NCBI GenBank assembly: GCA_036984305.1
Contig: BQWY01000001.1
Coordinates: 3,927,501 to 3,991,500, forward strand
DNA from: Nitrospira sp.
Lineage (GTDB): Bacteria > Nitrospirota > Nitrospiria > Nitrospirales > Nitrospiraceae
DNA: 64,000 nt
Direction of reading: 5' to 3'
Part shown: in pieces, positions 3,792 through 18,346 of the stretch
How positions within the stretch are numbered: the stretch's first letter is position 1
Layout: every line of letters begins with the position of its first letter
Position numbers and translations under genes: made by a program
The notes under the pieces: generated by a model
What the model saw: the letters and a program-made list of their open reading frames with translations, nothing else
The model's database searches: none
Told to the model about the DNA's origin: nothing

Positions 3792-4370
3792 TCAGGGACG
3801 CGTCAGACCGTCTTCGGATTCGTCGCGACATCCCCGCCCCATACATTCGGACCCGGACTCGGCCCCTCTCATTCCGCCATGACGCCCCATCCCCTCAGAG
3901 CCCATGCCTCCCCCTCGTCCTCGACCACCGGCAAACGTCCGTTCATAGCCTATGATGGACCAGATTTCTTCATCTGAAAGCGTCCCTGCGAACGGGATCA
4001 TCGCAGTGCCGGGACTTCCGTTCTTTACGACCCAAAAGATTTCCCCGTCGCTGCGGTGTCGCCAAAATCCATGATGGTGGAAGTTTCGTGGAGGAGGATT
4101 CAGCCCGGCCGACGCTTCGCCGTCTCCCTTCCCGGTCATGCCGTGACACTTCACGCACCCGCCCTTTCCTTCGTAGAGGGTCTTGCCTTTTTCGATGACT
4201 TCGTCAGAATCGGGCAACGGATTCGTCAGCGCCCGAGCCTCAGCGAGCTTGTCGGCCGGCACGCGAGGGCGCATCATGTCTTGCCGCTGCGCCACAGTCG
4301 GCGCGGTCGTCACTAGACACACGAAGACACACCCGATTCCGCCCCGGATCCATACCTTGGTCTTCCCCAT
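3792..4370 (-). CDS. monohaem cytochrome c with Gly/Met-rich tail
   Basis: 192 residues. A signal peptide (to about residue 27) is followed by an RVPADKLAEA / NPLP linker, haem site GGCVKCHGMTGKGDG at about residue 70, the PPPRNF loop, Met ligand region GSPGTAMIPFAG and the final helix DEEIWSIIGYERTF. After the domain comes an unusual tail of about 50 residues dominated by Gly, Met, Arg, His and two Cys. The linker-plus-domain layout is shared with 14058-14501 and the last domain of the tetrahaem protein at 8866-10278. The tail could bind metal or contact a partner; this is not shown. Confidence 0.88.
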   Translation of the reverse strand: MGKTKVWIRGGIGCVFVCLVTTAPTVAQRQDMMRPRVPADKLAEARALTNPLPDSDEVIEKGKTLYEGKGGCVKCHGMTGKGDGEASAGLNPPPRNFHHHGFWRHRSDGEIFWVVKNGSPGTAMIPFAGTLSDEEIWSIIGYERTFAGGRGRGGGMGSEGMGRHGGMRGAESGSECMGRGCRDESEDGLTRP

Positions 4371-4818: not shown

Positions 4819-5184
4819 CTAAGAAAACGGCCGTGGTGGAGCCAATGCCCTGATGTACCGGATCACGTCCATCATCTCCTGCTCGGTCAGACGCCCACGC
4901 CATGAATGCATGGGGCTGAACAGGACGCCGTTTGATATCGCGACGAGTAATTCGAAGTCGCTGCGGTCACGAGACGAAAGCGTCTGGAAATTCTCCGGCT
5001 GAACGATCAGATCCTTGGCATCCGGACCATTCCCCTCCCCGAATTTCCCGTGGCATCGAAGACAGTGCGCCTTGTAAATCGCTTCACCACGGTCCGCGCT
5101 GCCGGACGGCACTTGGGCCACCGTCCATCCACTGGCTCCCGCAATCCCTACCAGGAGTGCTGCAATAACTATAGTGGTTCGCAT
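4819..5184 (-). CDS. monohaem cytochrome c (paralogue of 4399-4764)
   Basis: 121 residues from ATG 5184, preceded by GAGAGGG; the longer frame to 5253 has no supporting site. A signal peptide ends at VAQV. Haem motif KAHCLRCHGKFGEGNGPDAK, the loop QPENFQTL, the Met region GVLFSPMHSWRGRLTEQEMM and a C-terminal helix. It is the tandem duplicate of the downstream gene, 54 nt away. A periplasmic electron carrier is likely; whether the two copies serve different donors is unknown. Confidence 0.87.
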   Translation of the reverse strand: MRTTIVIAALLVGIAGASGWTVAQVPSGSADRGEAIYKAHCLRCHGKFGEGNGPDAKDLIVQPENFQTLSSRDRSDFELLVAISNGVLFSPMHSWRGRLTEQEMMDVIRYIRALAPPRPFS

Positions 5185-5560
5185 TGCGTCCCTCTCTGCA
5201 TCAATATGCGTTGGATGTCCGAAAGATACCGGCTGTTGGTGAGAGCAAGACACATGCCGGTCGCGGTGTTACCGAGAATGACAGCAATCGACAGTGCGCG
5301 GCATGCCTTTAGGAGTGCGCGCTCATCGGGATTGATCCGATGGGAAAATGAAGAGGAATCTTGGGACAGACGACCGGTTGTCAGTGAGGCATCACGCTAC
5401 AAACCAACAAGCCCACAGGGTGGTAGGAATGATGAATCCTTTTCGCGATGGACGCCTCTCAGCAGCACGCCGGTCTGATGCCGCGTTATCCGGGCCCTTC
5501 CCGACAGGAGGCACGCGCTGTCGCGCATCGGAGAAGTCAAGCACGGAGGCTCAAGGACCT
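5185..5560. other. intergenic, no gene recognised
   Basis: 376 bases between the cytochrome gene and the DsrE-like gene. Frames in this stretch have no recognisable motif or ribosome site. On the minus strand it would carry the promoter of the cytochrome pair, but no confident -35/-10 pair was found. A weak GAGG...CCTC hairpin lies just past the DsrE stop. Confidence 0.4.
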
Positions 5561-5920
5561 CTAAAATACAATGCTCCGATCCCGTTCGACCACGGCCTTG
5601 ATGTAGTCGGGCATGCCTTTGATCGACGCGCCGGCCACCAAATCCGACCCGCCGATCTGCCTTGCCACCGCGCAGGCACCGCAGACCCAAATCGGTATCC
5701 CGGCAGCTTGTACCGATGTCAGAAGATCCTTCAACGGGGTCAGGTTCACACCCGTCACGTGATCCGCGGTGCCCTTCCGTCCCAGCGTCACCGCCTCGTT
5801 CCATAACCAGATGACGACGTCGTGGCCCTGTTCCTTGGCGGTCTTGGCCGCCATGAAGGGAAGTGTCGCCATGGTGGGATCGTCCGTGCCTCGACTGCCT
5901 GAAACGATGATCGTTGCCAT
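5561..5920 (-). CDS. DsrE-family protein
   Basis: 119 residues, GGGAGGGAG before the ATG. The fold signature of DsrE/DsrF/TusD-like proteins is visible: N-terminal strand MATIIVSGSRG, helix with AAKTAKEQGHDVVIWL, and a Cys pair in IPIWVCGACAVARQIG (Cys at about residues 79 and 82), followed by GMPDYIKAV. Family members are sulfur-relay or persulfide-carrying cytosolic proteins, and the conserved cysteine is present. Presence near SorAB, TsdA-like and transporter genes fits sulfur metabolism, but the partner is unknown. Confidence 0.85.
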   Translation of the reverse strand: MATIIVSGSRGTDDPTMATLPFMAAKTAKEQGHDVVIWLWNEAVTLGRKGTADHVTGVNLTPLKDLLTSVQAAGIPIWVCGACAVARQIGGSDLVAGASIKGMPDYIKAVVERDRSIVF

Positions 5921-5948: not shown

Positions 5949-6989
5949 TTAACCTGCCGTCACCGGATGCCCCGGCGCTCGGAGGACACGTTCCACGCGC
6001 TTCAAACTAGTCGGAACTCCCAATACAATCAGCTTGTCCCCACGCGACAGTCGGACGTCGGGCCCCGGGTTGAATTCCATCGAGCCGGCTGCCCGCGAGA
6101 CGGCTACCAGGATGAGTCCCCGATCCTCTGCCAATCCGCAGTCGCAGGGCGTGCGCCCGTCAAACCGAGCGTCATCGATGAGGAATTCCTCCATCTGAAG
6201 ATCGAGATGCTCGCTCTGCACGGCCAAGTCGAGAAAGTCGACCACGGCCGGCCGAATCAGAGCTTGGGCCACTTGCATGCCGCCGATCAGATAGGGTGAC
6301 GACACGCGGTTCGCCCCTGCTCGAAGCAGCTTCTGTTCGGAGCCCTCCTCTCCGGCTCGTGCCACGATGTGAAGATGCTTGTTGAGACCTCGCGCCGTGA
6401 GGACGATGTACAGATTTTCCATGTCGGTGCGTACGACGGAGACCAACCCTTTTGCGCGCGCAATGCCCGCCCGAGTGAGGACGTCGTCCTGCGTCGCATC
6501 GCCCTCAATGGTCAGGACATCCCGTCCTTCCACGCCGGCAAGCGCGGCAGGGTCTTTATCGATGACGACAAATGGGACCGGCTTGGCGCGAAGCTCTTTG
6601 CAAATCCTCCTGCCCATGCGGCCATATCCGCAGACAATGTAGTGTTGTTCCAAGCGTTTCACCCTTGCATCGACACGGTATTGGCCGAACACATCACGGA
6701 GTTCTCCCTCCAGAACCAGGCGGGCGACGTTACCAAGCACATAGAACAACATTCCCACGCCCGAAATAATGAGCACCAACGTAAAGGCACGTCCCGCGTC
6801 CGAGAGTGGATACACCTCTTGATAACCGACCGTGGTCACCGTCGTGACGGTCATGTACAGAGCATCGAACGTCGTCCATCCCTCGATCACCACATAACCG
6901 ATCGTGCCGCCAATGAGCAGCACTCCCAGGGCGACAACAGAGAGCAGGAGTCGGTGAAGGGAGCCAGATGTGACGGGCGAGCTCGGCAT
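5949..6989 (-). CDS. two-TM potassium channel with TrkA-N and TrkA-C domains
   Basis: 346 residues. TM1 (about 12-32), pore region with the selectivity filter in VTTVTTVGYQEV, TM2 (about 68-90), then a Rossmann TrkA-N domain starting HYIVCGYGRMGRRIC (Gly-rich NAD-binding loop) with VIDKDP and IEGDATQDD, and a TrkA-C domain (from about residue 255, HLDLQMEEFLI). The filter reads GYQ rather than GYG, as seen in several bacterial channels of this type. It moves K+ across the inner membrane under ligand control. Transcribed with the DsrE gene downstream (28 nt gap). Confidence 0.92.
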   Translation of the reverse strand: MPSSPVTSGSLHRLLLSVVALGVLLIGGTIGYVVIEGWTTFDALYMTVTTVTTVGYQEVYPLSDAGRAFTLVLIISGVGMLFYVLGNVARLVLEGELRDVFGQYRVDARVKRLEQHYIVCGYGRMGRRICKELRAKPVPFVVIDKDPAALAGVEGRDVLTIEGDATQDDVLTRAGIARAKGLVSVVRTDMENLYIVLTARGLNKHLHIVARAGEEGSEQKLLRAGANRVSSPYLIGGMQVAQALIRPAVVDFLDLAVQSEHLDLQMEEFLIDDARFDGRTPCDCGLAEDRGLILVAVSRAAGSMEFNPGPDVRLSRGDKLIVLGVPTSLKRVERVLRAPGHPVTAG

Positions 6990-7004: not shown

Positions 7005-7637
7005 CTATTGATGCAACGATTGGAGCCATGCGTGAATATCCGCGATCTCCTGCGGCTTCAGGACAGCGCCCCACGGCGGCATCGCTCCTCGCCCGTGCAG
7101 CACCGTATCCCAAAAACGGTCGTCCTCATTGAGGATCGGATTTTGCGCAAGCTTCGGCCCCACCCCTCCGATAGCCTTCAGCCCGTGGCACGCCTGACAG
7201 TTCGCGAAAAAGATGCCGGCACCGCGTCGCGCATTGCCCTCCGGCCGTTCACCAGTCGTCTTCTGCTCGCCTTCGATACGGAACGGAACCGCAGCATTCG
7301 CCGATCCCATCACGGGCGGAAGTACCTCCGGTGCGTCCGACGAGTAGCGACCGGACAAGTAATCAACCAGAATGAGCGCCTCGTCGTCGCTGAGTTCTGC
7401 GCCCCAATGGCGCATCTTGGTCACCGTCGCGTCCCATGTGTCTCGACTGAGTCGTTGTTGTCTGATCAAATCGGGGCTATGACAGACCGCGCACCGCGCC
7501 AGCACAAGTCCCTCTCCGCGAGCGGCCAGACTGCCGCTTGGGGGTGAATCCGGTTGCGCTCGATCCGGGGCCACCAACACGGCCCAAATGAGGCAGGTGG
7601 CGAAGGCTCCTGCCAAACCGCTCCAATGCCGTATCAT
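7005..7637 (-). CDS. sorB: sulfite dehydrogenase cytochrome subunit, di-haem
   Basis: 210 residues from ATG 7637, which overlaps the stop of the upstream molybdoenzyme gene as ATGA. The signal peptide ends near residue 36. Two haem motifs: CAVCH (about residue 52) and CQACH (about residue 137), with RRGAGIFFANCQACHG and a Met candidate in GRGAMPPWG. In Starkeya-type SorAB the cytochrome subunit has one haem; two here suggests a longer wire or a fused carrier. Its overlap with sorA makes the pairing strong. Confidence 0.8.
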   Translation of the reverse strand: MIRHWSGLAGAFATCLIWAVLVAPDRAQPDSPPSGSLAARGEGLVLARCAVCHSPDLIRQQRLSRDTWDATVTKMRHWGAELSDDEALILVDYLSGRYSSDAPEVLPPVMGSANAAVPFRIEGEQKTTGERPEGNARRGAGIFFANCQACHGLKAIGGVGPKLAQNPILNEDDRFWDTVLHGRGAMPPWGAVLKPQEIADIHAWLQSLHQ

Positions 7638-8824
7638 GCCGCGACCGTCACAGATACTCGATCCCACCCGTTCCAGAGGAACCCGCCTGGATTCCATGAA
7701 GATCGTTCGGGTTGCACGTCGCCTCGGCTGTCGGTCGCCCGGCACAGCAACGTGACAGGTCCCGACGCTGCGGCGTCCCAGCGATACTCCCACCGTCGCC
7801 AGGCATAGGGCACGTCGTTGCCAAGTAATGTGGCTGGTTTCCAATGTCGCCCGTCATCCATCGACACCTCGACGCGCGTCACCCGTGCCTCTCCCGTCCA
7901 TGCGACGCCGGCGATCGTCACCGGGCCAGCAGAGACCTCCGCTCCTTCGCCCGGCGTGACGATCAACGACTTGACGATCATCTCTTCCACCGGGACCATG
8001 TCCCCGCCCGATACCGAGGCCCCCGATTCCACCGGAGCGGTTGGATGCCGATAGGCCGTTTGCATGTAATACCCCTCCGCCTCGTGCCCCTGGACGCGAA
8101 TGGCCGCCAACCATTTCGTCCACGAGTCGGCCATCCATCCGGGTGTAACGAGCCGCAGCGGTCCTCCATGAAGCACGGGTAGAGGTTCATCATTCATACG
8201 GTACACGACCAATGTGGCCGGATGAAGCGCCTTCACCATTGGAATACTCCGAAAGAACAGCGGCGTCTTCGTGGACACCGGACGATCGGCTCCCTCGAGT
8301 TGCACGTGCTTCGCCTTGGACCGGTCGAGTCCCGCTTGCTCAAGGACGTCCCGCAGCCGCACACCGGTCCACCGCGCGTTCCCCACCGCCCCGCGTTCCC
8401 ATTGCACACCGGGTACACGCGGACGCTGATTGGCTCGCCCGTTTCCGCTGCACTGGAGGACGGCGGTGATGGTGACCTGCTCGAGTCGATTCAAGTCGCT
8501 GAGAGTCAGATCCAGCGGCGTGTCCACCAAGCCCGACACCGACAGCCGCCATCGCGCCGGATCGATGGCGTCCGGTGCGGGCGGACCGAAGTGGCTCCGA
8601 ACGAAAAACTTTTCGTTCGGCGTCAGCCACTCGCGAAAGACCGCAACATCGGTTTCCGCGTCGTACGGCCGTGTCACGTGTGTCCGGAGACCATTGGATG
8701 ACGGCGCATCGACCTGCGCACCCCAGCTCAACTGTCCTAATCCGCGGGGATTGGCGCCAACCACAACCGCGGCGGCGGCCGCCAGTTGCAGCATACGACG
8801 TCTGGATATCGAGTCATCGGCCAT
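7634..8824 (-). CDS. sorA: sulfite:cytochrome c oxidoreductase, molybdopterin subunit
   Basis: 396 residues from ATG 8824. A twin-arginine signal (SRRRMLQLAAAAAV) sends the folded enzyme to the periplasm. The oxidoreductase molybdopterin domain holds the cofactor-ligating Cys125 in VLQCSGNGR; HGGPLRLVTPGWM and SWTKWLAAI are also family signatures. The C-terminal Mo-co dimerisation domain spans about residues 285-395 (VTIAGVAWTGEARV, VEVSMDDGRHW). It oxidises sulfite to sulfate and passes electrons to cytochrome c. The overlap with sorB and the tetrahaem gene 41 nt upstream suggest one operon. Plain sulfite-oxidase homologues with other substrates exist, so the substrate is inferred. Confidence 0.88.
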   Translation of the reverse strand: MADDSISRRRMLQLAAAAAVVVGANPRGLGQLSWGAQVDAPSSNGLRTHVTRPYDAETDVAVFREWLTPNEKFFVRSHFGPPAPDAIDPARWRLSVSGLVDTPLDLTLSDLNRLEQVTITAVLQCSGNGRANQRPRVPGVQWERGAVGNARWTGVRLRDVLEQAGLDRSKAKHVQLEGADRPVSTKTPLFFRSIPMVKALHPATLVVYRMNDEPLPVLHGGPLRLVTPGWMADSWTKWLAAIRVQGHEAEGYYMQTAYRHPTAPVESGASVSGGDMVPVEEMIVKSLIVTPGEGAEVSAGPVTIAGVAWTGEARVTRVEVSMDDGRHWKPATLLGNDVPYAWRRWEYRWDAAASGPVTLLCRATDSRGDVQPERSSWNPGGFLWNGWDRVSVTVAA

Positions 8825-8865
8825 GTCTGGCGTGTCCTTTCCCTTTCTCCCCTTCACCCGATTTC

Positions 8866-10278
8866 CTACTTCGCCAACGTGCGGATATAGTGGATCAACT
8901 GCCACACCTCGTCGTCGGACAGATTCCCAAACGGCATCATGCCGGTTCCGGGCGATCCGTTCTTGATGATCCAGAAGAGCTGCCCGTCCGGAAGGCCCTT
9001 CATCGTTTGACCGCAGGTGAAATTCCGCGGCGGCGGCTGAAACGCCAGCCCCATGGCTCCGCGACCGTCCCCTGCCGTACCGTGGCAGTTCATACAGGCA
9101 AGCGGCGTTGCGGTCTGCTGGAAGAGCGTCTTTCCGGCCTGCACCGCTTTCGATGAGGCAGGCAACGGGTTCACCTTCGCCAGGAACTCCGCTGGTGCCC
9201 GTTGGGTCTTCCGCTCCTGCGGGCAGACGCCCATGCCTCCCGCCGTCGCGGCACCACCCTCGCCACCTTTGAACGTAGCCTTCAGGTATGCAATGACGTC
9301 GGCCACCCTCTGCTGCCCAAGCGTGAGCCCCCAATACGGCATACTGGGCGATTTGCCGACCGACACTCCGCCATGATTGATGACCGTATACAGATACTCC
9401 ATCGGGAGCTTGTCGAAGGCCATATTGGCGTGCACCGCTGGTTTGGGATTCAACCCGGAGGCGGCCGGTCCGTCACCTTTTCCCGTCATGCCGTGGCATT
9501 GCGCGCAATATTCCTTATAGACGATCTTGCCGCGATCGACGCTGGCATGGGCGAATTCTTCGCTCGTCCAGGGCTCGTAATAGCTAAAATGCTGAATCCC
9601 TTGTGTCGCGAGAAAGCCGATGACGGCGCGCAATTGCGGATCCGTCGCATCGGCCAAGAACTCCCCGGTATGCTCGATAAAGTCTTGTGGATTTTGCCCG
9701 AAGCGATACAGCCAGTCCATGTTATAGCGTCGACCGGCCTCCTGGAGCGCCGTGCTTTGGGGACCGCCGATGATCTGCCCGTTTTCTTCAATCGTATGGC
9801 AGCCCAGACAGGCGTGCGCCTTGTACGCCATCTGCCCGAACGTCGCCTCGTATTTCGACACCTTCGAGACGTCGAATGCCCCGGCCTTCACGCGTGGATC
9901 CTTGTTGTGCTCCTGAAAATAGTCGGCAATGGCGTTGGCATTCGCCTCTGATACCGTGATGTGCTGATGCGGCTCCTGCGAGAGATCCCAGCGATAGCCC
10001 TTGGCGTAGAGCGGCGGCTCTTTGCCCGTAAGCCAACGGATGAGCCAGGAGCGCTGGTACTTGCTGCCAGCCCAGATCAGATCGGGCGCCTTGAGATTGA
10101 AGCGGGAACCGGCGTGTCCCTCCAAGCGATGACACCCCGCACAGGTCGTCTTGATCATCGTGCTGATGTTCTTTTGTCCCTCATCGGACCATGTCGTGGA
10201 CAGGAAGCCCACGGCCGCCGTCACCCCCACGATACCGATCCGGACTGCCCATCGCCCGACTCGCGTGCTCCCCCGCAT
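8866..10278 (-). CDS. tetrahaem cytochrome c of three cytochrome modules
   Basis: 470 residues from ATG 10278, with GGGGAGGAG upstream. Four haem sites: CAGCH (46), CLGCH (157), CAQCH (258) and CMNCH (395). The first two belong to a less usual N-terminal di-haem part (LIWAGSKYQRSWLIRWL); the last two are ordinary class I domains with HINHGG/YWG and GSPGTGMMPFG loops. The last domain is preceded by the same AEFLAKVNPLPAS linker seen in 3792-4370 and 14058-14501. It lies 41 nt upstream of sorA and probably relays electrons from sulfite oxidation or to a reductase; this is inference. Confidence 0.87.
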   Translation of the reverse strand: MRGSTRVGRWAVRIGIVGVTAAVGFLSTTWSDEGQKNISTMIKTTCAGCHRLEGHAGSRFNLKAPDLIWAGSKYQRSWLIRWLTGKEPPLYAKGYRWDLSQEPHQHITVSEANANAIADYFQEHNKDPRVKAGAFDVSKVSKYEATFGQMAYKAHACLGCHTIEENGQIIGGPQSTALQEAGRRYNMDWLYRFGQNPQDFIEHTGEFLADATDPQLRAVIGFLATQGIQHFSYYEPWTSEEFAHASVDRGKIVYKEYCAQCHGMTGKGDGPAASGLNPKPAVHANMAFDKLPMEYLYTVINHGGVSVGKSPSMPYWGLTLGQQRVADVIAYLKATFKGGEGGAATAGGMGVCPQERKTQRAPAEFLAKVNPLPASSKAVQAGKTLFQQTATPLACMNCHGTAGDGRGAMGLAFQPPPRNFTCGQTMKGLPDGQLFWIIKNGSPGTGMMPFGNLSDDEVWQLIHYIRTLAK

Positions 10279-10316: not shown

Positions 10317-10736
10317 TTACGCCGATGATGCCCACGTAGCACCGGCTGTCGACAATCGAATATGCACAGCCGACGGCTTCAGCACGGTCTGGTGCACCGT
10401 GCACCCCTCTGCGACACGTAAGAGGCGCTCCTGCTCGGAAGGATTCACCGTTGCCGGCAGTTGAATACGGACCGTCATCGGTCCAACCCGATGGGGCCGC
10501 TCGACCATGTCATACTCGGCATCGACCACGAACCCCTCGCATGGGATGTGATGTCGCTCGCAATACCTCGCGACGAAGAACGCGATGCAACTGACCATCG
10601 ACCCGACAAAGAGTTCGACCGGACTCATGCCGGCGTTGGTGCCGCCATCCTCCGCCGGCTGGTCGGATACTACGACGTGAGCGCCGCTCAGAATATGGAA
10701 TTTTGTTCCTCCCCGGTAGGCTACAGACAGATTCAT
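10317..10736 (-). CDS. OsmC/Ohr-family protein
   Basis: 139 residues from ATG 10736, which overlaps the upstream transporter stop (ATGA). The OsmC fold is visible: NLSVAYRGGTKFHI, SPVELFVGSMVSCIAFFVARYCERH and CTVHQTVLKP. The two reactive cysteines of the family are probably Cys in MVSCIAF and CTVHQ. These proteins reduce peroxides or act on sulfur species. Being the third gene of an ATGA-coupled trio with a split YeeE/YedE transporter suggests a sulfur-transfer role rather than plain peroxide stress. Confidence 0.88.
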   Translation of the reverse strand: MNLSVAYRGGTKFHILSGAHVVVSDQPAEDGGTNAGMSPVELFVGSMVSCIAFFVARYCERHHIPCEGFVVDAEYDMVERPHRVGPMTVRIQLPATVNPSEQERLLRVAEGCTVHQTVLKPSAVHIRLSTAGATWASSA

Positions 10737-11263
10737 GATCGACTCCGATTCTCCGGCAATCGTTGGGCCAGCCAGATCGCGAGACTGCCCAGCGGGAGCG
10801 CCAACCAAATGCCTCGCACCCCCAGCCAACCCGACAGCGTCACCGGGCCATAATGTCCGACGGTCAATATTCCTTGCTCGAATTCAGGGATCAGGAAGGC
10901 AAAGGTGAGTGCCCCTACCAGCCCCCCCGACATGGTCACCAGCGCGTCGGCCTTCCCTTCGGCCGCGGCCGCCAAGGCGGTTCCGGGACAGTAGCCAGAC
11001 ACCGCAAATCCGATTCCAAAAATCAGACCGGCCTCGAGCACGCCTGGCATGTAGAGATCCTTGACCTTCATGTGTGCCAATCCCCATGCGTCCAGCAGAT
11101 GGACCCCGATCATGCCGACGCCGATGCCCGTCAGGATCAGCTTGATAATCGTCCAATCGCGCAGGCGCAAGGCGTTGATGATCTTCGTGTGACTCGATGC
11201 CCCCGCCAACTGCAGCAACGCTCCGAACACGACGCCCAGCATCGATCCGTACACCAGCTTCAT
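10733..11263 (-). CDS. YeeE/YedE transporter, C-terminal half subunit
   Basis: 176 residues, start ATG 11263 overlapping the previous stop. Four to five membrane segments with MKLVYGSMLGVVFGALLQLA, FGIGFAVSGYCPGTALAAAA (conserved Cys in the GYCPGT loop) and the terminal helix. Together with the preceding gene it makes the full YeeE/YedE (DUF6691) membrane protein. Homologues import thiosulfate (TsuA) or sulfur compounds using conserved cysteines. It is located with a thiosulfate-dehydrogenase-like gene. Confidence 0.86.
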   Translation of the reverse strand: MKLVYGSMLGVVFGALLQLAGASSHTKIINALRLRDWTIIKLILTGIGVGMIGVHLLDAWGLAHMKVKDLYMPGVLEAGLIFGIGFAVSGYCPGTALAAAAEGKADALVTMSGGLVGALTFAFLIPEFEQGILTVGHYGPVTLSGWLGVRGIWLALPLGSLAIWLAQRLPENRSRS

Positions 11264-11820
11264 GGGTGTTCCATCTGGTTTGGATGGTCGGGATACAACC
11301 ACCGCGCTGTCACGATTCCGCCGAGAAACACGGCCGCCGAAAACACGAACGAGCTCAACGCCAGTTGCGAGATACCGCTGATCATGTGGCCGGACGTGCA
11401 GCCCCCACCCAAGCGTGCTCCGAACAGGAGCAGGAAGCCTCCGGCAAAACTGGCAGCCAATCGCTTCACCGGCGAGGGACCAAAGCGTGCCTTCCACTCC
11501 TCCGGCACGAGGCGAGGAGAAAAGCGTCCGGTCAGCCACGCCGAAAGCCACGCGCCAAGGGGAATTCCGCCGACAAATGCGAATTCATACGTCGCCAGCG
11601 ACCATCCCTCCGCCAGCTCGCTCAGGTATGTACTTCGCGCAGCCAGCTCGGGCGCAGTCGCATGCAGAAACACCCCGTCGAGCACGACGTACTGGGTCGA
11701 CACTCCGATCGGCTGCAGCAGTCCAACCGCCGCAATCAGCACCAGCCCGATCCCCGCCCCTCCGGCCCACCACGGAATCACCGGCTGCGCCCTACTAGCG
11801 TCATTCGTGATTCGTGTCAT
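11260..11820 (-). CDS. YeeE/YedE transporter, N-terminal half subunit
   Basis: 186 residues. Membrane segments at about 16-36, 75-97, 110-135 and 145-172. Family signature FGARLGGGCTSGHMISGISQ with the conserved Cys. The first 11 residues (MTRITNDASRA) are encoded by a small tandem repeat, but a GGAGG site lies about 11 nt before the ATG, so this start is kept. The downstream partner starts at its stop codon. The likely cargo is thiosulfate or another sulfur species (TsuA-like); not proven. Confidence 0.86.
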   Translation of the reverse strand: MTRITNDASRAQPVIPWWAGGAGIGLVLIAAVGLLQPIGVSTQYVVLDGVFLHATAPELAARSTYLSELAEGWSLATYEFAFVGGIPLGAWLSAWLTGRFSPRLVPEEWKARFGPSPVKRLAASFAGGFLLLFGARLGGGCTSGHMISGISQLALSSFVFSAAVFLGGIVTARWLYPDHPNQMEHP

Positions 11821-12015: not shown

Positions 12016-12867
12016 CTAGTACGGTGCATCCTGCGGCTTTCCGCCCAGTGGCCAATCGAACCGCTTGTCCGGAAAGTCCGGACGCGGCTGCCGATTCACA
12101 TACGCAGCCACATCGTAGGCCTCTTCGCCTGTCAACCCATCTTCCTGTCCGAGCGGCATGTTGTGCCGGATGAACGACGCCGACACGCTGTTGCGTGCCA
12201 TGCCCGCGCCCACGGTATACGATCGCGGGCCCCAGAGCGGCGGCGCCATGGAAGTTCCGTGGCCGTCGCTCCCGTGACACCCGCTGCAGCGTCGCCGGTA
12301 CACACGCTCGCCTCGCGCCGGCTGGGGCGGCCTCGTCGTCGCAACTGTGCTGAATCCACGGGAGGCGAGCGCCTCTTCGCGAGACAGGCCCTCGGAAAGC
12401 CATGTAATGTACGCGACGAGGGCTCTTTGTTCCCGGCTTCCGGAGGAAAGCGGCGTCCCGTTCATGCTTCGTAAGAAGCAATCGTTCAACCGATCTTCGA
12501 GCGAGTTCACCCGTGCGTTGCGCGCTCGATACTCGGGATACACAAGCGTCAATCCGCTAAACGGCGCCGCGCCAACCCGACGCCCTGCATCCAAATGGCA
12601 GTTCGAACAGTTCAAGCCGTTGCCGACATGGGATCGCGCGCGCACCTGGGTCTGTGTCACCAGCTCATACCCCAGGCGGATCAGTGCACCTGATTCGTCG
12701 ACCGGCAGCGTCTCGATGGACCGTCTCTGGAGTTCGTCTCCTCCATGACCATGACCGATCCGAGTTTCGCCGACCGACTCTGACCAAGCCTCGACTCCTG
12801 GGTCGAATCCAAGCCATCCCACACAGACAGCAACCGCGAGGAGTGCGTTCCACACGGTACCGGCCAT
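12016..12867 (-). CDS. tsdA: TsdA-like di-haem cytochrome c (thiosulfate dehydrogenase family)
   Basis: 283 residues with a signal peptide ending near residue 27. Haem 1 CSNCH (87-91) is followed by LDAGRRVGAAPFSGL and NSLEDRLNDCFLRSMNG; the Cys130 in this motif matches the axial Cys ligand of Allochromatium TsdA. Haem 2 CSGCH (194-198) is a class I domain. TsdA couples two thiosulfates to tetrathionate, or the reverse, in the periplasm. Located beside a YeeE/YedE transporter and OsmC gene. The assignment rests on motif recognition; some relatives act in other sulfur reactions. Confidence 0.78.
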   Translation of the reverse strand: MAGTVWNALLAVAVCVGWLGFDPGVEAWSESVGETRIGHGHGGDELQRRSIETLPVDESGALIRLGYELVTQTQVRARSHVGNGLNCSNCHLDAGRRVGAAPFSGLTLVYPEYRARNARVNSLEDRLNDCFLRSMNGTPLSSGSREQRALVAYITWLSEGLSREEALASRGFSTVATTRPPQPARGERVYRRRCSGCHGSDGHGTSMAPPLWGPRSYTVGAGMARNSVSASFIRHNMPLGQEDGLTGEEAYDVAAYVNRQPRPDFPDKRFDWPLGGKPQDAPY

Positions 12868-14057: not shown

Positions 14058-14501
14058 TCATGGCGCGCCAAATGATCGCACATAGAGCAGGACCTGCCAG
14101 GCCTCATCCTCGGTCAACACGAGGGGGATGAATGGGGCCATGTCGGTGCCAGGGCTGCCGTTCTTAAGTATCCACAGCAATTCGCCGTCCGTCCGAGCCT
14201 TCTGCCACGCGCGATCGGTAAAATTGCGCGGGAGCTTTCCGCGCAATCCCGGTATGTCACCGAGCCCTTTGCCATCGCGGCCGTGGCAGGTGACGCAAAA
14301 GGCTTTGCCGTGAAAAATCGACTTGCCGCGCTCGATCTGCTCGGCGGTCGCGGGAAACGGATTGGTCCAGGTTCTGGCCTCCTCGATTTGGTCCGGCGGT
14401 ACACGCGACCTCAATACTTCGGCATCGGCTGCGAAGAGAGCGGCCGCACAACTTACTTCGAGAACAAACTGCACCGCCAACGTCACCGATAGACGTCTCA
14501 A
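14058..14501 (-). CDS. monohaem cytochrome c coupled to the beta-barrel gene
   Basis: 147 residues, signal peptide to about residue 24. Linker RVPPDQIEEARTWTNPFPAT, haem site CVTCHGRDGKG (about residue 69), LRGKLPRNFTDRAW, Met region GSPGTDMAPFIP and final helix AWQVLLYVRSFG. Same layout as 3792-4370. The stop codon is 6 nt before the beta-barrel start, suggesting a functional pair. Predicted to be periplasmic, passing electrons to or from an outer-membrane partner, but direct evidence is lacking. Confidence 0.86.
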   Translation of the reverse strand: MRRLSVTLAVQFVLEVSCAAALFAADAEVLRSRVPPDQIEEARTWTNPFPATAEQIERGKSIFHGKAFCVTCHGRDGKGLGDIPGLRGKLPRNFTDRAWQKARTDGELLWILKNGSPGTDMAPFIPLVLTEDEAWQVLLYVRSFGAP

Positions 14502-14633: not shown

Positions 14634-15158
14634 TTACTTCTCGCTGTGCCCGGGAAACTGATGCCCCAGCGACTGTGGGAATGTCACCGACCCGTCAGGA
14701 AATTCCTTGCCCGGCTGCCAGAGCTGGTAAATCACCCCGTCGGTTTTCGACGCCGCTTCCGCAACTTTCTTTGCCTGATCTTCCGGCATGTCCAACACTT
14801 GCACACGCCCCGTCGCGATCTCGACCTTGTGATCGTGGAAAAAGCGATGCCATTGGATCGGGGAAAGCTTGCGGCTCAGGTCCTTCGCCACGAAATATTC
14901 GACCCCCAAAAGCTTCGCCTTGGGGTCCGTGGAGTCGAACAATAGGCATTGCAGAATCTGGTCGGAGATGCCTTTGCAGTAGTGATGGAAGGGCCCACCC
15001 GGCTCGCCGTTCGGCATGAGATGCGGAGCTTGCACATGAATGTCATAGCCCTCTGCCGGCGACTTAGGATCGTCGGCAAGCGCCAGACCCGACCATCCTG
15101 CCATCGCCATTGCACATACCACCGCGGTCAACGAACGTCCCAACACTGTCTGTCGCAT
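14634..15158 (-). CDS. DUF1264 family secreted protein
   Basis: 174 residues from ATG 15158, with AGGAGG 7 nt upstream; a longer start at 15200 is not needed. Signal peptide to about residue 28. The body shows DUF1264 features: IHVQAPHLMPNGEPGGPFHH, YCKGISDQILQCLLFDSTDP, LLGVEYFVAK and IQWHRFFHDHKVEI. The plant relatives are oil-body-associated proteins; the bacterial function is not established. Nearby are cytochromes and a small secreted protein. Confidence 0.82.
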   Translation of the reverse strand: MRQTVLGRSLTAVVCAMAMAGWSGLALADDPKSPAEGYDIHVQAPHLMPNGEPGGPFHHYCKGISDQILQCLLFDSTDPKAKLLGVEYFVAKDLSRKLSPIQWHRFFHDHKVEIATGRVQVLDMPEDQAKKVAEAASKTDGVIYQLWQPGKEFPDGSVTFPQSLGHQFPGHSEK

Positions 15159-15461
15159 ATCGGCCTCCTGTGTGTGAAGAAATGAGCGGTACCCATCCAC
15201 CGATGGGTCACCCTATGAATCCTGGACGTTAGAGACAGATCCAGGAGAAACGATTCATCTCCGGATGTTTTGGTTTTTGGCGAGCCGCACAACCGCCAGC
15301 AATGCCGGAGGAGTCCAGCCGATAGCCACAGAGTGACCCGCGCGTAGCCCATCCTAGAGAACCACTTCCGCCAAGTCCATGACTTGGTCCATGCCACCCG
15401 GCTTCCAGCCCCGTCGAGGGCCACACCGTCCTAAACCCGCCGAACCTCGGGACGGCTGACG
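15159..15461. other. intergenic, nothing recognised
   Basis: 303 bases between the DUF1264 gene and a small secreted protein. No frame with a ribosome site or family motif was found, and no clear promoter pair. It should hold the promoter of the DUF1264 gene. Confidence 0.4.
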
Positions 15462-15887: not shown

Positions 15888-18263
15888 TTATCTCCGGGTA
15901 TGGTAAGGCCATTGCCATTCTCGGATCTCCGTGAGGTCTTGGCCGTAGCGGGTAATGTATTCGTGATGTTCAATGAGCTTGTCCCGCAGGTGCTGCTTGA
16001 GATGTGCCGCTCGGGAACCCAGCGTCGGAACCCGGTCGATCACATCGCATACGAGATGAAACCGGTCGAGATCGTTCCTCACGACCATGTCAAACGGCGT
16101 GGTCGTGGTCCCCTCTTCCTTATAGCCACGCACGTGGAGGTTCGGATGGTTGGTTCGGCGGTATGTCAACCGGTGGATGAGCCACGGGTATCCGTGATAG
16201 GCGAAAATCACGGGCTTGTCCCGCGTAAACAGGGTATCGAACTCCCGGTTGGACAGGCCGTGCGGATGTTCTTCCTCGGGCTGCAGCGTCATGAGATCCA
16301 CGACGTTGAGGGTTCGGACTTTCAACTCCGGCAAGTGGCGGCGCAAAAGATCGACGGCCGCCAACGTTTCCGTGGTCGGCACGTCTCCCGCGCACGCCAT
16401 CACGACGTCAGGATCCCCGTCGACGTCGTTGCTCGCCCATTCAAAGATGCCGATGCCCGCGGTGCAATGTTTGATCGCGGCATCCATGTCAAGCCACTGC
16501 GGCTGCGGTTGCTTGCCCGCGATGATGATATTGATGAAATTTTTCGAGCGCAGGCACCAGTCCGCCACGTAGAGCAATGAATTCGCGTCCGGCGCCAAGA
16601 ACACACGAATGATATCCGCCTTCTTGTTCATGGCAAGGTCGATGAAACCGGGATCCTGGTGGGAAAAGCCGTTGTGATCTTGCCGCCAGACATGGGACGT
16701 CAGCAAGTAGTTCAGCGAGGCGATAGGCCGCCGCCACGGTATTTCCTTCGTGGTGACCTTGAGCCATTTGGCATGCTGGTTGAACATGGAATCGACGATA
16801 TGCACAAACGCCTCGTAGCAGGAGAACAATCCGTGGCGGCCGGTCAGAAGATAGCCCTCCAACCAACCCTGACACGTATGCTCGGACAATATCTCCATGA
16901 CGCGTCCGCTCGGAGACAAGTGATCATCCGACTCCACGGTGTTTGCCACCCACCTGCGATCGGTCGCCTCAAACAACGCACCCAACCGATTGGAAGCCGT
17001 TTCATCCGGGCCGAAGACGCGGAAGTTGCAGTGCTCGACATTGAGCTTCATGACGTCCCGAAGATAGCCGCCCAAGACGCGTGTGGCTTCGCCGGTCTTT
17101 TCTCCCGGTTCCGCCACGTTGAGGGCGTAGTCCCGGAAGTCCGGCAAACGCAGATCTTTCAGCAGGAGGCCTCCGTTCGCGCGGGGATTGGCACCCATGC
17201 GGCGGGCCCCCTCCGGAGCCAATGCCTTGAGCTCCGACCGAAGCGTGCCGCTCCGGTCGAATAGTTCTTCGGGATGGTAACTGCGCAGCCAGGCCTCCAG
17301 CATGGCGAGGTGTTCCGGCTTCGACGCCAATTCGGCCAACGGAACTTGGTGCGACCGCCAATGCCCTTCGGTCGGCTTGCCGTCCACCGACTTCGGGCCG
17401 GTCCATCCCTTTGGCGTGATCAGGACAATCATGGGCCATCGCGGACGTCTCGTGAGCTTCTTCCCTCGAGCCTCTTGCTGGATCGCGCGAATGCGCTGCA
17501 CCACGCGGTCCAGCGTGGCGGCCATCAACTCGTGCATGTGCACCGGCTCATGTCCCTCGACCACGAGCGGCTCGTAACCGTAGCCGGTGAACAGTTGCTC
17601 CAGTTCGTCACGGCCGATGCGCGCGAGAATGGTAGGATTGGCGATTTTGTAGCCGTTGAGATGCAGGATCGGCAGCACGGCGCCATCCGTGCTTGGATTC
17701 AAGAACTTGTTAGAGTGCCATGCCGTTGCGAGCGGCCCCGTCTCCGCTTCCCCGTCACCGACCACGCAGGTCGCAATCAAGTCCGGATTGTCGAACACGG
17801 CACCGAACGCGTGCGCCAGCGAGTAGCCCAGTTCCCCGCCCTCATTGATCGATCCCGGCGTCTCCGGCGCGGCGTGGCTGGGAATTCCACCGGGGAAGGA
17901 GAACTGGCGGAACAACCGCCGCATCCCCTCCTCATCCTGCGACGCGCTCGGGTACAGCTCACTGTAGGTACCTTCAAGGTACGTACTTGCTACCATTGCG
18001 GGTCCGCCGTGGCCTGGACCGCAAACATAGATCATGTCGAGATCGAACTTCTTGATGACCCGGTTGAGATGGGTATAGACGAAGTTCAATCCGGGGGTGG
18101 TGCCCCAATGGCCTAGCAAGCGGGGTTTGACATGGTCCAACGTAAGCGGCTGCTTGAGCAACGGGTTGTCGATCAAATAGATCTGTCCAACCGAGAGGTA
18201 GTTGGCAGCCCTCCAGTACGCATTGATACCGGCGAGCTCCGCCTCACTCAATGTCGGCTCCAT
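15888..18263 (-). CDS. xfp: phosphoketolase
   Basis: 791 residues, the normal length for bacterial phosphoketolases, from ATG 18263 with ATAGGAGGAG upstream. Signatures: [60 protein letters not shown] and the thiamine diphosphate motif [20 protein letters not shown]. It splits xylulose-5-phosphate and/or fructose-6-phosphate to acetyl-phosphate plus triose or tetrose phosphate. The acetate kinase gene 87 nt upstream fits an ATP-yielding or acetyl-CoA-supplying pathway. Whether it is dual-specific cannot be told from sequence. Confidence 0.95.
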
Positions 18264-18346
18264 CGCGACACTCCTCCTATCGTATGCAGTGCGGTCCGTT
18301 GCTCGGGCCGGCATGCTGTACATTCGCAGTTGCAGGATCCTCGATC

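Follow-up and report, generated by a model that had tools for sequence, protein, structure and literature searches.

A predicted SorAB sulfite dehydrogenase with a di-haem SorB and a tetrahaem cytochrome neighbour in a sulfur gene row of Nitrospira: a proposed electron path

In a stretch of 64,000 nucleotides of Nitrospira sp. DNA (contig BQWY01000001.1; the whole stretch is referred to here as the window), the genes of a predicted sulfite dehydrogenase, sorA and sorB, follow a gene for a tetrahaem c-type cytochrome, here called TET (Table 1). An earlier note on this DNA had described a three-part locus. Its account of these genes proves accurate throughout, but the three form the central part of a longer sulfur row on one strand, which runs from a TsdA-like gene, two YeeE/YedE halves and OsmC upstream, through TET, SorA and SorB, to a K+ channel and DsrE downstream. 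The TET gene adjoins two distinct SorA lineages, since the SorA tree splits these clades and TET lies near members of both. We consider it probable that the row oxidizes sulfur oxyanions, with electrons passing from SorA to SorB, then to TET, other cytochromes or both, and ending at a cytochrome bd-like oxidase, TET being shared with other enzymes. The observed basis of this proposal consists of the genes, their haem motifs, the conserved gene order, the distribution of the genes and the lack of a COX1 match, and from these we infer every electron-transfer step as well as the substrates.

The SorA, SorB and TET genes

SorA has the sulfite-oxidase fold, the molybdenum-ligand cysteine and the dimerization domain, with Pfam matches to Oxidored_molyb (PF00174, 1.9e-57) and Mo-co_dimer (PF03404, 2.2e-18). 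It contains two cysteines, at positions 125 and 361, and its N-terminus, MADDSISRRRMLQLAAAAAVVVGA, carries a twin-arginine (RRR) signal, SRRRMLQLAAAAAVVVGA, as judged by eye; both Cys125 and this signal had been pointed out previously. Among solved structures the nearest is SorA from Starkeya novella (2blf, 2.4e-70), and the Cys, Arg and Tyr positions of 2blf that we take to be active-site residues are aligned in SorA. On the NCBIfam SorA model the protein scores 321.7 bits, short of the curated equivalog cut-off of 600 bits, and a SorA of the canonical clade (from L077) scores 589.5 bits. Judged from its sequence, SorA of the window is a member of a divergent clade under the curated cut-off, which is a new observation.

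The start codon of sorB overlaps the stop codon of sorA by 4 nt (ATGA), and TET lies 41 nt upstream of sorA, both as first reported. SorB carries two CXXCH motifs, CAVCH at residue 49 and CQACH at residue 147, rather than the one of the single-haem SorB of SorAB. Its N-terminal domain (residues 40-98) matches the NCBIfam SorB model (1.1e-14, 54.2 bits against a cut-off of 93 bits), and its C-terminal domain (residues 126-207) is of the c551/CBB3 type, a class I cytochrome c. Because a methionine after each haem motif is conserved (Met75 in 12 of 12 and Met186 in 11 of 11 sequences), both haems of SorB may be His/Met-ligated.

The four CXXCH motifs of TET, the number previously claimed, are at residues 46, 157, 258 and 395. 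The protein has two Cytochrome_CBB3 stretches in Pfam, and its N-terminus looks like that of a secreted protein. As conserved histidine candidates are found for haems 1 and 2 (106; 203) and conserved methionine candidates for haems 3 and 4 (313; 426, 447, 448), TET plausibly has two haems of the bis-His and two of the His/Met type.

Conservation of the SorA and TET neighbourhood

The survey comprised 235 genomes of the window's order with match lists for TET and SorA, and the counts below refer to the matches listed. TET is present in at least 148 of the 235 genomes, a lower bound; ten TET places were added from a draw across the phylum. SorA rows weaker than about 1e-66, among them further paralogues resembling sulfite oxidase as well as some distant rows, were left out, and the numbers of genomes with SorA but no TET, or with TET but no SorA, depend on the cut-offs.

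SorA was counted in 109 genomes, 79 with the divergent form and 30 with the canonical form (31 canonical rows). In the divergent clade, 59 of the 79 genomes have TET no more than 2.5 kb from SorA, in every case on the same strand; these neighbours are tetrahaem proteins in 44 cases and three-haem or partial versions in 15, and they lie downstream of SorA in 56 and upstream in three, the window among them. For the 31 canonical rows, TET is within 2.5 kb in seven, always upstream, and within 10 kb in eight more. The two clades are clearly separate in a SorA tree of 33 rows, with SorA from Nitrotoga placed within the canonical clade. A chance neighbourhood was rejected on the basis of these proximity counts and the two separate clades, and the earlier suggestion that the three genes share an electron path is reasonable for a unit that recurs in this way.

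A three-haem TET version of 336 amino acids, in which the C-terminal haem domain is missing, adjoins SorA in a subset of genomes (L072:6220-7230 and L080:7595-8605). The closest TET loci with names are from Nitrospira metagenome genomes and from Ca. Nitrospira defluvii (L098), in which the order is TsdA-like, OsmC, SorA, SorB and TET. SorA is found at 23 of 80 named TET loci by a direct test and at 22 by protein cluster; by cluster, a TsdA-like gene is found at 41, OsmC at 37 and DsrE at 49. A polyphosphate kinase 2 gene follows soon after TET at 34 of the 80 loci (cluster c4; for example L126:7944-9005).

Among the matches listed, 64 of the 148 genomes with TET have no counted SorA and 25 of the 109 genomes with SorA have no TET, and the TsdA-like gene and OsmC are retained at many TET loci without SorA. 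The idea that TET forms a wire dedicated to sulfite, as previously proposed, was rejected on the SorA-free genomes and loci. At E<=1e-60, TET was found in 105 of the 395 genomes of the phylum draw, which belong without exception to two families of the Nitrospira order, and in 14 of 120 genomes drawn from the family of Nitrotoga.

SorB haem number and TET

For comparison with the number of SorB haems, TET was scored as present or absent at E<=1e-60 from the genome table; SorB was unreadable in three of the 79 divergent loci, owing to contig ends, and in four of the 31 canonical rows. In the divergent clade, SorB is di-haem in all 66 TET-containing genomes with a readable SorB, whereas the ten genomes without TET have six mono-haem and four di-haem proteins (Fisher p 9.6e-7, uncorrected for kinship). 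Along the SorA tree the haem number changes four times and TET seven times. That haem number follows TET in the divergent clade is a new observation, which is suggestive and no more.

Proposed electron-transfer pathway

The Nitrospira gene row would serve the periplasmic oxidation of sulfur oxyanions. SorA, as suggested by its fold and active-site residues, would oxidize sulfite to sulfate at its molybdenum centre and pass the electrons singly to the N-terminal haem of SorB, which would correspond to the single haem of classical SorB. The second SorB haem, that of the fused C-terminal cytochrome domain, would receive the electrons next and, as the exit site, hand them on to TET, to small c-type cytochromes or to both. 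TET may act as a shared periplasmic electron collector that also serves the TsdA-like thiosulfate dehydrogenase and is not reserved for sulfite. Because the genome has no haem-copper oxidase, the final acceptor would be a cytochrome bd-like oxidase.

No match to haem-copper oxidase (PF00115/COX1) was found in the whole genome, whereas eight of 14 control genomes match; the bd-oxidase matches in the genome comprise two full-length and five partial ones. According to the accessible text of PMC6606698, no canonical haem-copper oxidase is encoded in the Nitrospira genomes analysed there, and a bd-like oxidase, as yet uncharacterized, may be used instead. The earlier note had envisaged an undescribed terminal acceptor: nothing in the locus shows one, but its wider point holds to the extent that this genome has only bd and bd-like oxidases and that the oxidase accepting electrons from cytochrome c is, in the same source, uncharacterized. 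Outside the window, at G000:C1:909714-916300 and 2807622-2814004, lie two pairs of partial genes resembling bd oxidase, which are candidates for the Nitrospira bd-like oxidases.

It may further be speculated that TET is a collector, in both Nitrospira and Nitrotoga, which joins SorAB and the TsdA-like enzyme to bd-like oxidases, that the second haem domain of SorB is a piece for docking to TET, given the tendency of genomes without TET to lack this domain, and that the one TET gene gained its SorA neighbours from two separate lineages; we give this extended scheme a low probability.

Several observations weigh against the proposed pathway. When kinship is taken into account, the link between SorB and TET comes down to four independent changes, three or four of them concordant and none opposite (sign test p 0.125-0.25). 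The four TET-free genomes of the divergent clade mentioned above keep a di-haem SorB, and the canonical clade breaks the rule, with 18 di-haem and five mono-haem proteins where TET is present and, where it is absent, four di-haem proteins and four cases without a readable SorB. In the available part of PMC3561395, the C-terminal domain of the comparable di-haem cytochrome c550 of Thermus seemed dispensable. TET and SorA are on separate contigs in all three Nitrotoga genomes that were checked, and TET in Nitrotoga has superoxide dismutase genes and, in many cases, peroxidase genes as neighbours; in L149, L158 and L163 (loci from Nitrotoga and Nitrosomonadales), genes for Cu/Zn superoxide dismutase and DsrE come after TET, often together with genes for a di-haem cytochrome c peroxidase and, judging from the sequence, a catalase. 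The structure prediction of TET from 18 sequences (pLDDT 46) is too poor for use, and no haem arrangement is claimed.

The same genes could be explained by plain SorAB sulfite detoxification, in which the second haem of SorB has no role beyond storing the second electron, the general pool of cytochrome c takes up the electrons and TET shares the operon incidentally. For Thermus c550, as described in the accessible text of PMC3561395, no wire from entry to exit was found and two-electron storage was proposed, and the numbers of genomes with TET or SorA but not the other among the matches listed are also in its favour; however, TET stands beside two separate SorA clades, in one of which the number of SorB haems tends to go with the presence of TET, and we regard this explanation as unlikely. 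TET could also serve primarily the oxidation of thiosulfate by the TsdA-like enzyme or the handling of sulfane sulfur by OsmC, DsrE and YeeE/YedE, with SorAB added to clear or use the resulting sulfite. This is possible, if doubtful: the TsdA-like gene, OsmC and DsrE stay with TET at many loci that lack SorA, and by cluster each is found at more of the 80 named loci than SorA, whereas about 12 TET loci have no nearby SorA, TsdA-like gene or DsrE (for example L093, L105 and L111), which argues that TET has other partners.

A further alternative makes TET a general carrier of nitrite oxidizers, running from nitrite oxidoreductase to the oxidase, into which the sulfur genes plug. That the TET matches of the phylum draw are confined to two families of the Nitrospira order, that TET also occurs in the family of Nitrotoga and that several Nitrotoga are among its named matches is consistent with such a role, but TET is missing from many near-complete genomes of the same family (for example G015, G021, G038, G089 and G137) and no nitrite oxidoreductase gene was noticed near TET, although no search was aimed at it; we consider this alternative quite improbable.

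The wider sulfur row

The TsdA-like gene has a SoxA/TsdA domain, two haems and a Cys-ligand motif, RLNDCF, which is aligned to RIGDCF of the solved enzymes, and its predicted function is that of a thiosulfate dehydrogenase. It resembles TsdA (4wqc, 4v2k and related structures) in the two haems and the ligand motif, and differs in that it belongs to a row with SorAB and TET. It is separated by 195 nt from the first YeeE/YedE half, which overlaps the second half by 4 nt, and the second half overlaps OsmC by 4 nt. The relative of the DsrE-family gene in L151 matches PF02635 (3.9e-21). Scans for promoters and terminators gave about as many matches as chance would (4 against 3.0 expected and 7 against 6.9 expected) and carry no weight for or against an operon.

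Table 1. Genes of the sulfur row and its surroundings, with positions in the window
Feature	Position	Strand	Length (aa)	Matches and spacing
Phosphoketolase	15888-18323	minus		above family cut-off
DUF1264-like gene (by look)	14634-15200	minus		
Mono-haem cytochrome-579-like protein, upstream edge of row	14058-14501	minus		NCBIfam cytochrome579 9.7e-30, under cut-off
TsdA-like di-haem thiosulfate dehydrogenase (predicted)	12016-12867	minus		PF21342 1.9e-12; solved thiosulfate dehydrogenases, best 8.7e-53
Half-size YeeE/YedE-like sulfur transporter, first half	11260-11820	minus		weak TsuA (thiosulfate transporter) match 3.6e-10, far under cut-off
Half-size YeeE/YedE-like sulfur transporter, second half	10733-11263	minus		weak TsuA match far under cut-off; PF04143 for longer reading frame
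OsmC-family protein	10317-10736	minus		PF02566 8.1e-12; 38 nt upstream of TET
TET, tetrahaem c-type cytochrome	8866-10278	minus	470	
sorA, predicted periplasmic sulfite dehydrogenase catalytic subunit, Tat-type, divergent SorA clade	7634-8824	minus	396	
sorB, two-domain di-haem cytochrome c	7005-7637	minus	210	
K+ channel with TrkA domains	5949-6989	minus		PF02254, PF07885; 15 nt after sorB
DsrE-family protein	5561-5920	minus		83% identity to DsrE-family gene near TET in L151; 28 nt after channel
Mono-haem cytochrome	4819-5253	minus		
Mono-haem cytochrome	3792-4370	minus		
Mono-haem cytochrome	1915-2286	minus		

Four mono-haem cytochromes flank the row, two of them cytochrome-579-like. A phosphoketolase gene is also present, and a further gene resembles, by look, a DUF1264 gene found repeatedly in the neighbourhood of TET in relatives (L102:273-836).

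Comparison with known systems

SorAB from S. novella (2blf) is alike in the fold, cysteine ligand and active-site residues of SorA and in an adjoining cytochrome subunit to which the N-terminal domain of SorB corresponds, whereas here a further haem domain is present in SorB, the SorA belongs to a divergent clade and TET lies alongside. The earlier remark that SorB has two haems rather than the usual one is correct relative to S. novella, but Thermus thermophilus provides a precedent for a di-haem acceptor built of two domains. As far as the accessible text of PMC3561395 goes, the Thermus c550 accepts electrons from the sulfite enzyme at its SorB-like N-terminal domain and reduces c552 through both domains. 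SorB has the same layout of a SorB-like N-terminal domain and a c-type C-terminal domain with one haem each, the likeness being one of described domain layout. The Thermus system differs in that no tetrahaem neighbour is described in that text and in that it feeds c552 and the ba3 and caa3 oxidases, a type of oxidase that this genome lacks.

SorAB sulfite dehydrogenase has been reported in Nitrospira (PMC7078480, PMC8115632, PMC12342949), Nitrotoga (PMC6050957) and Nitrospina (PMC3578206), and its transcripts were detected in one comammox strain (PMC7078480). These are the same type of enzyme in the same guild; the di-haem SorB, TET and the TsdA, OsmC and DsrE neighbours are not mentioned in the accessible parts of these five papers. 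Our literature search returned no account of a tetrahaem partner or a di-haem SorB in Nitrospira, which is not proof of absence. Judging from the consulted parts of these sources, both a sulfite dehydrogenase in Nitrospira and a di-haem SorB-like partner, the Thermus c550, are already known. SorAB was described in the excerpt of PMC12342949 as largely confined to lineage IV; set against the 79 genomes with divergent SorA, this suggests that the divergent clade was perhaps missed, falling under curated cut-offs.

In conclusion, sulfite dehydrogenase of nitrite oxidizers has been regarded, in the available text of PMC10579370 and PMC8115632, as possibly providing an alternative source of energy, no phenotype having been tied to it. 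The conserved row of SorAB, a thiosulfate dehydrogenase and a tetrahaem cytochrome would provide a concrete and testable electron path, and may offer a handle on which oxidase of Nitrospira accepts electrons from cytochrome c.

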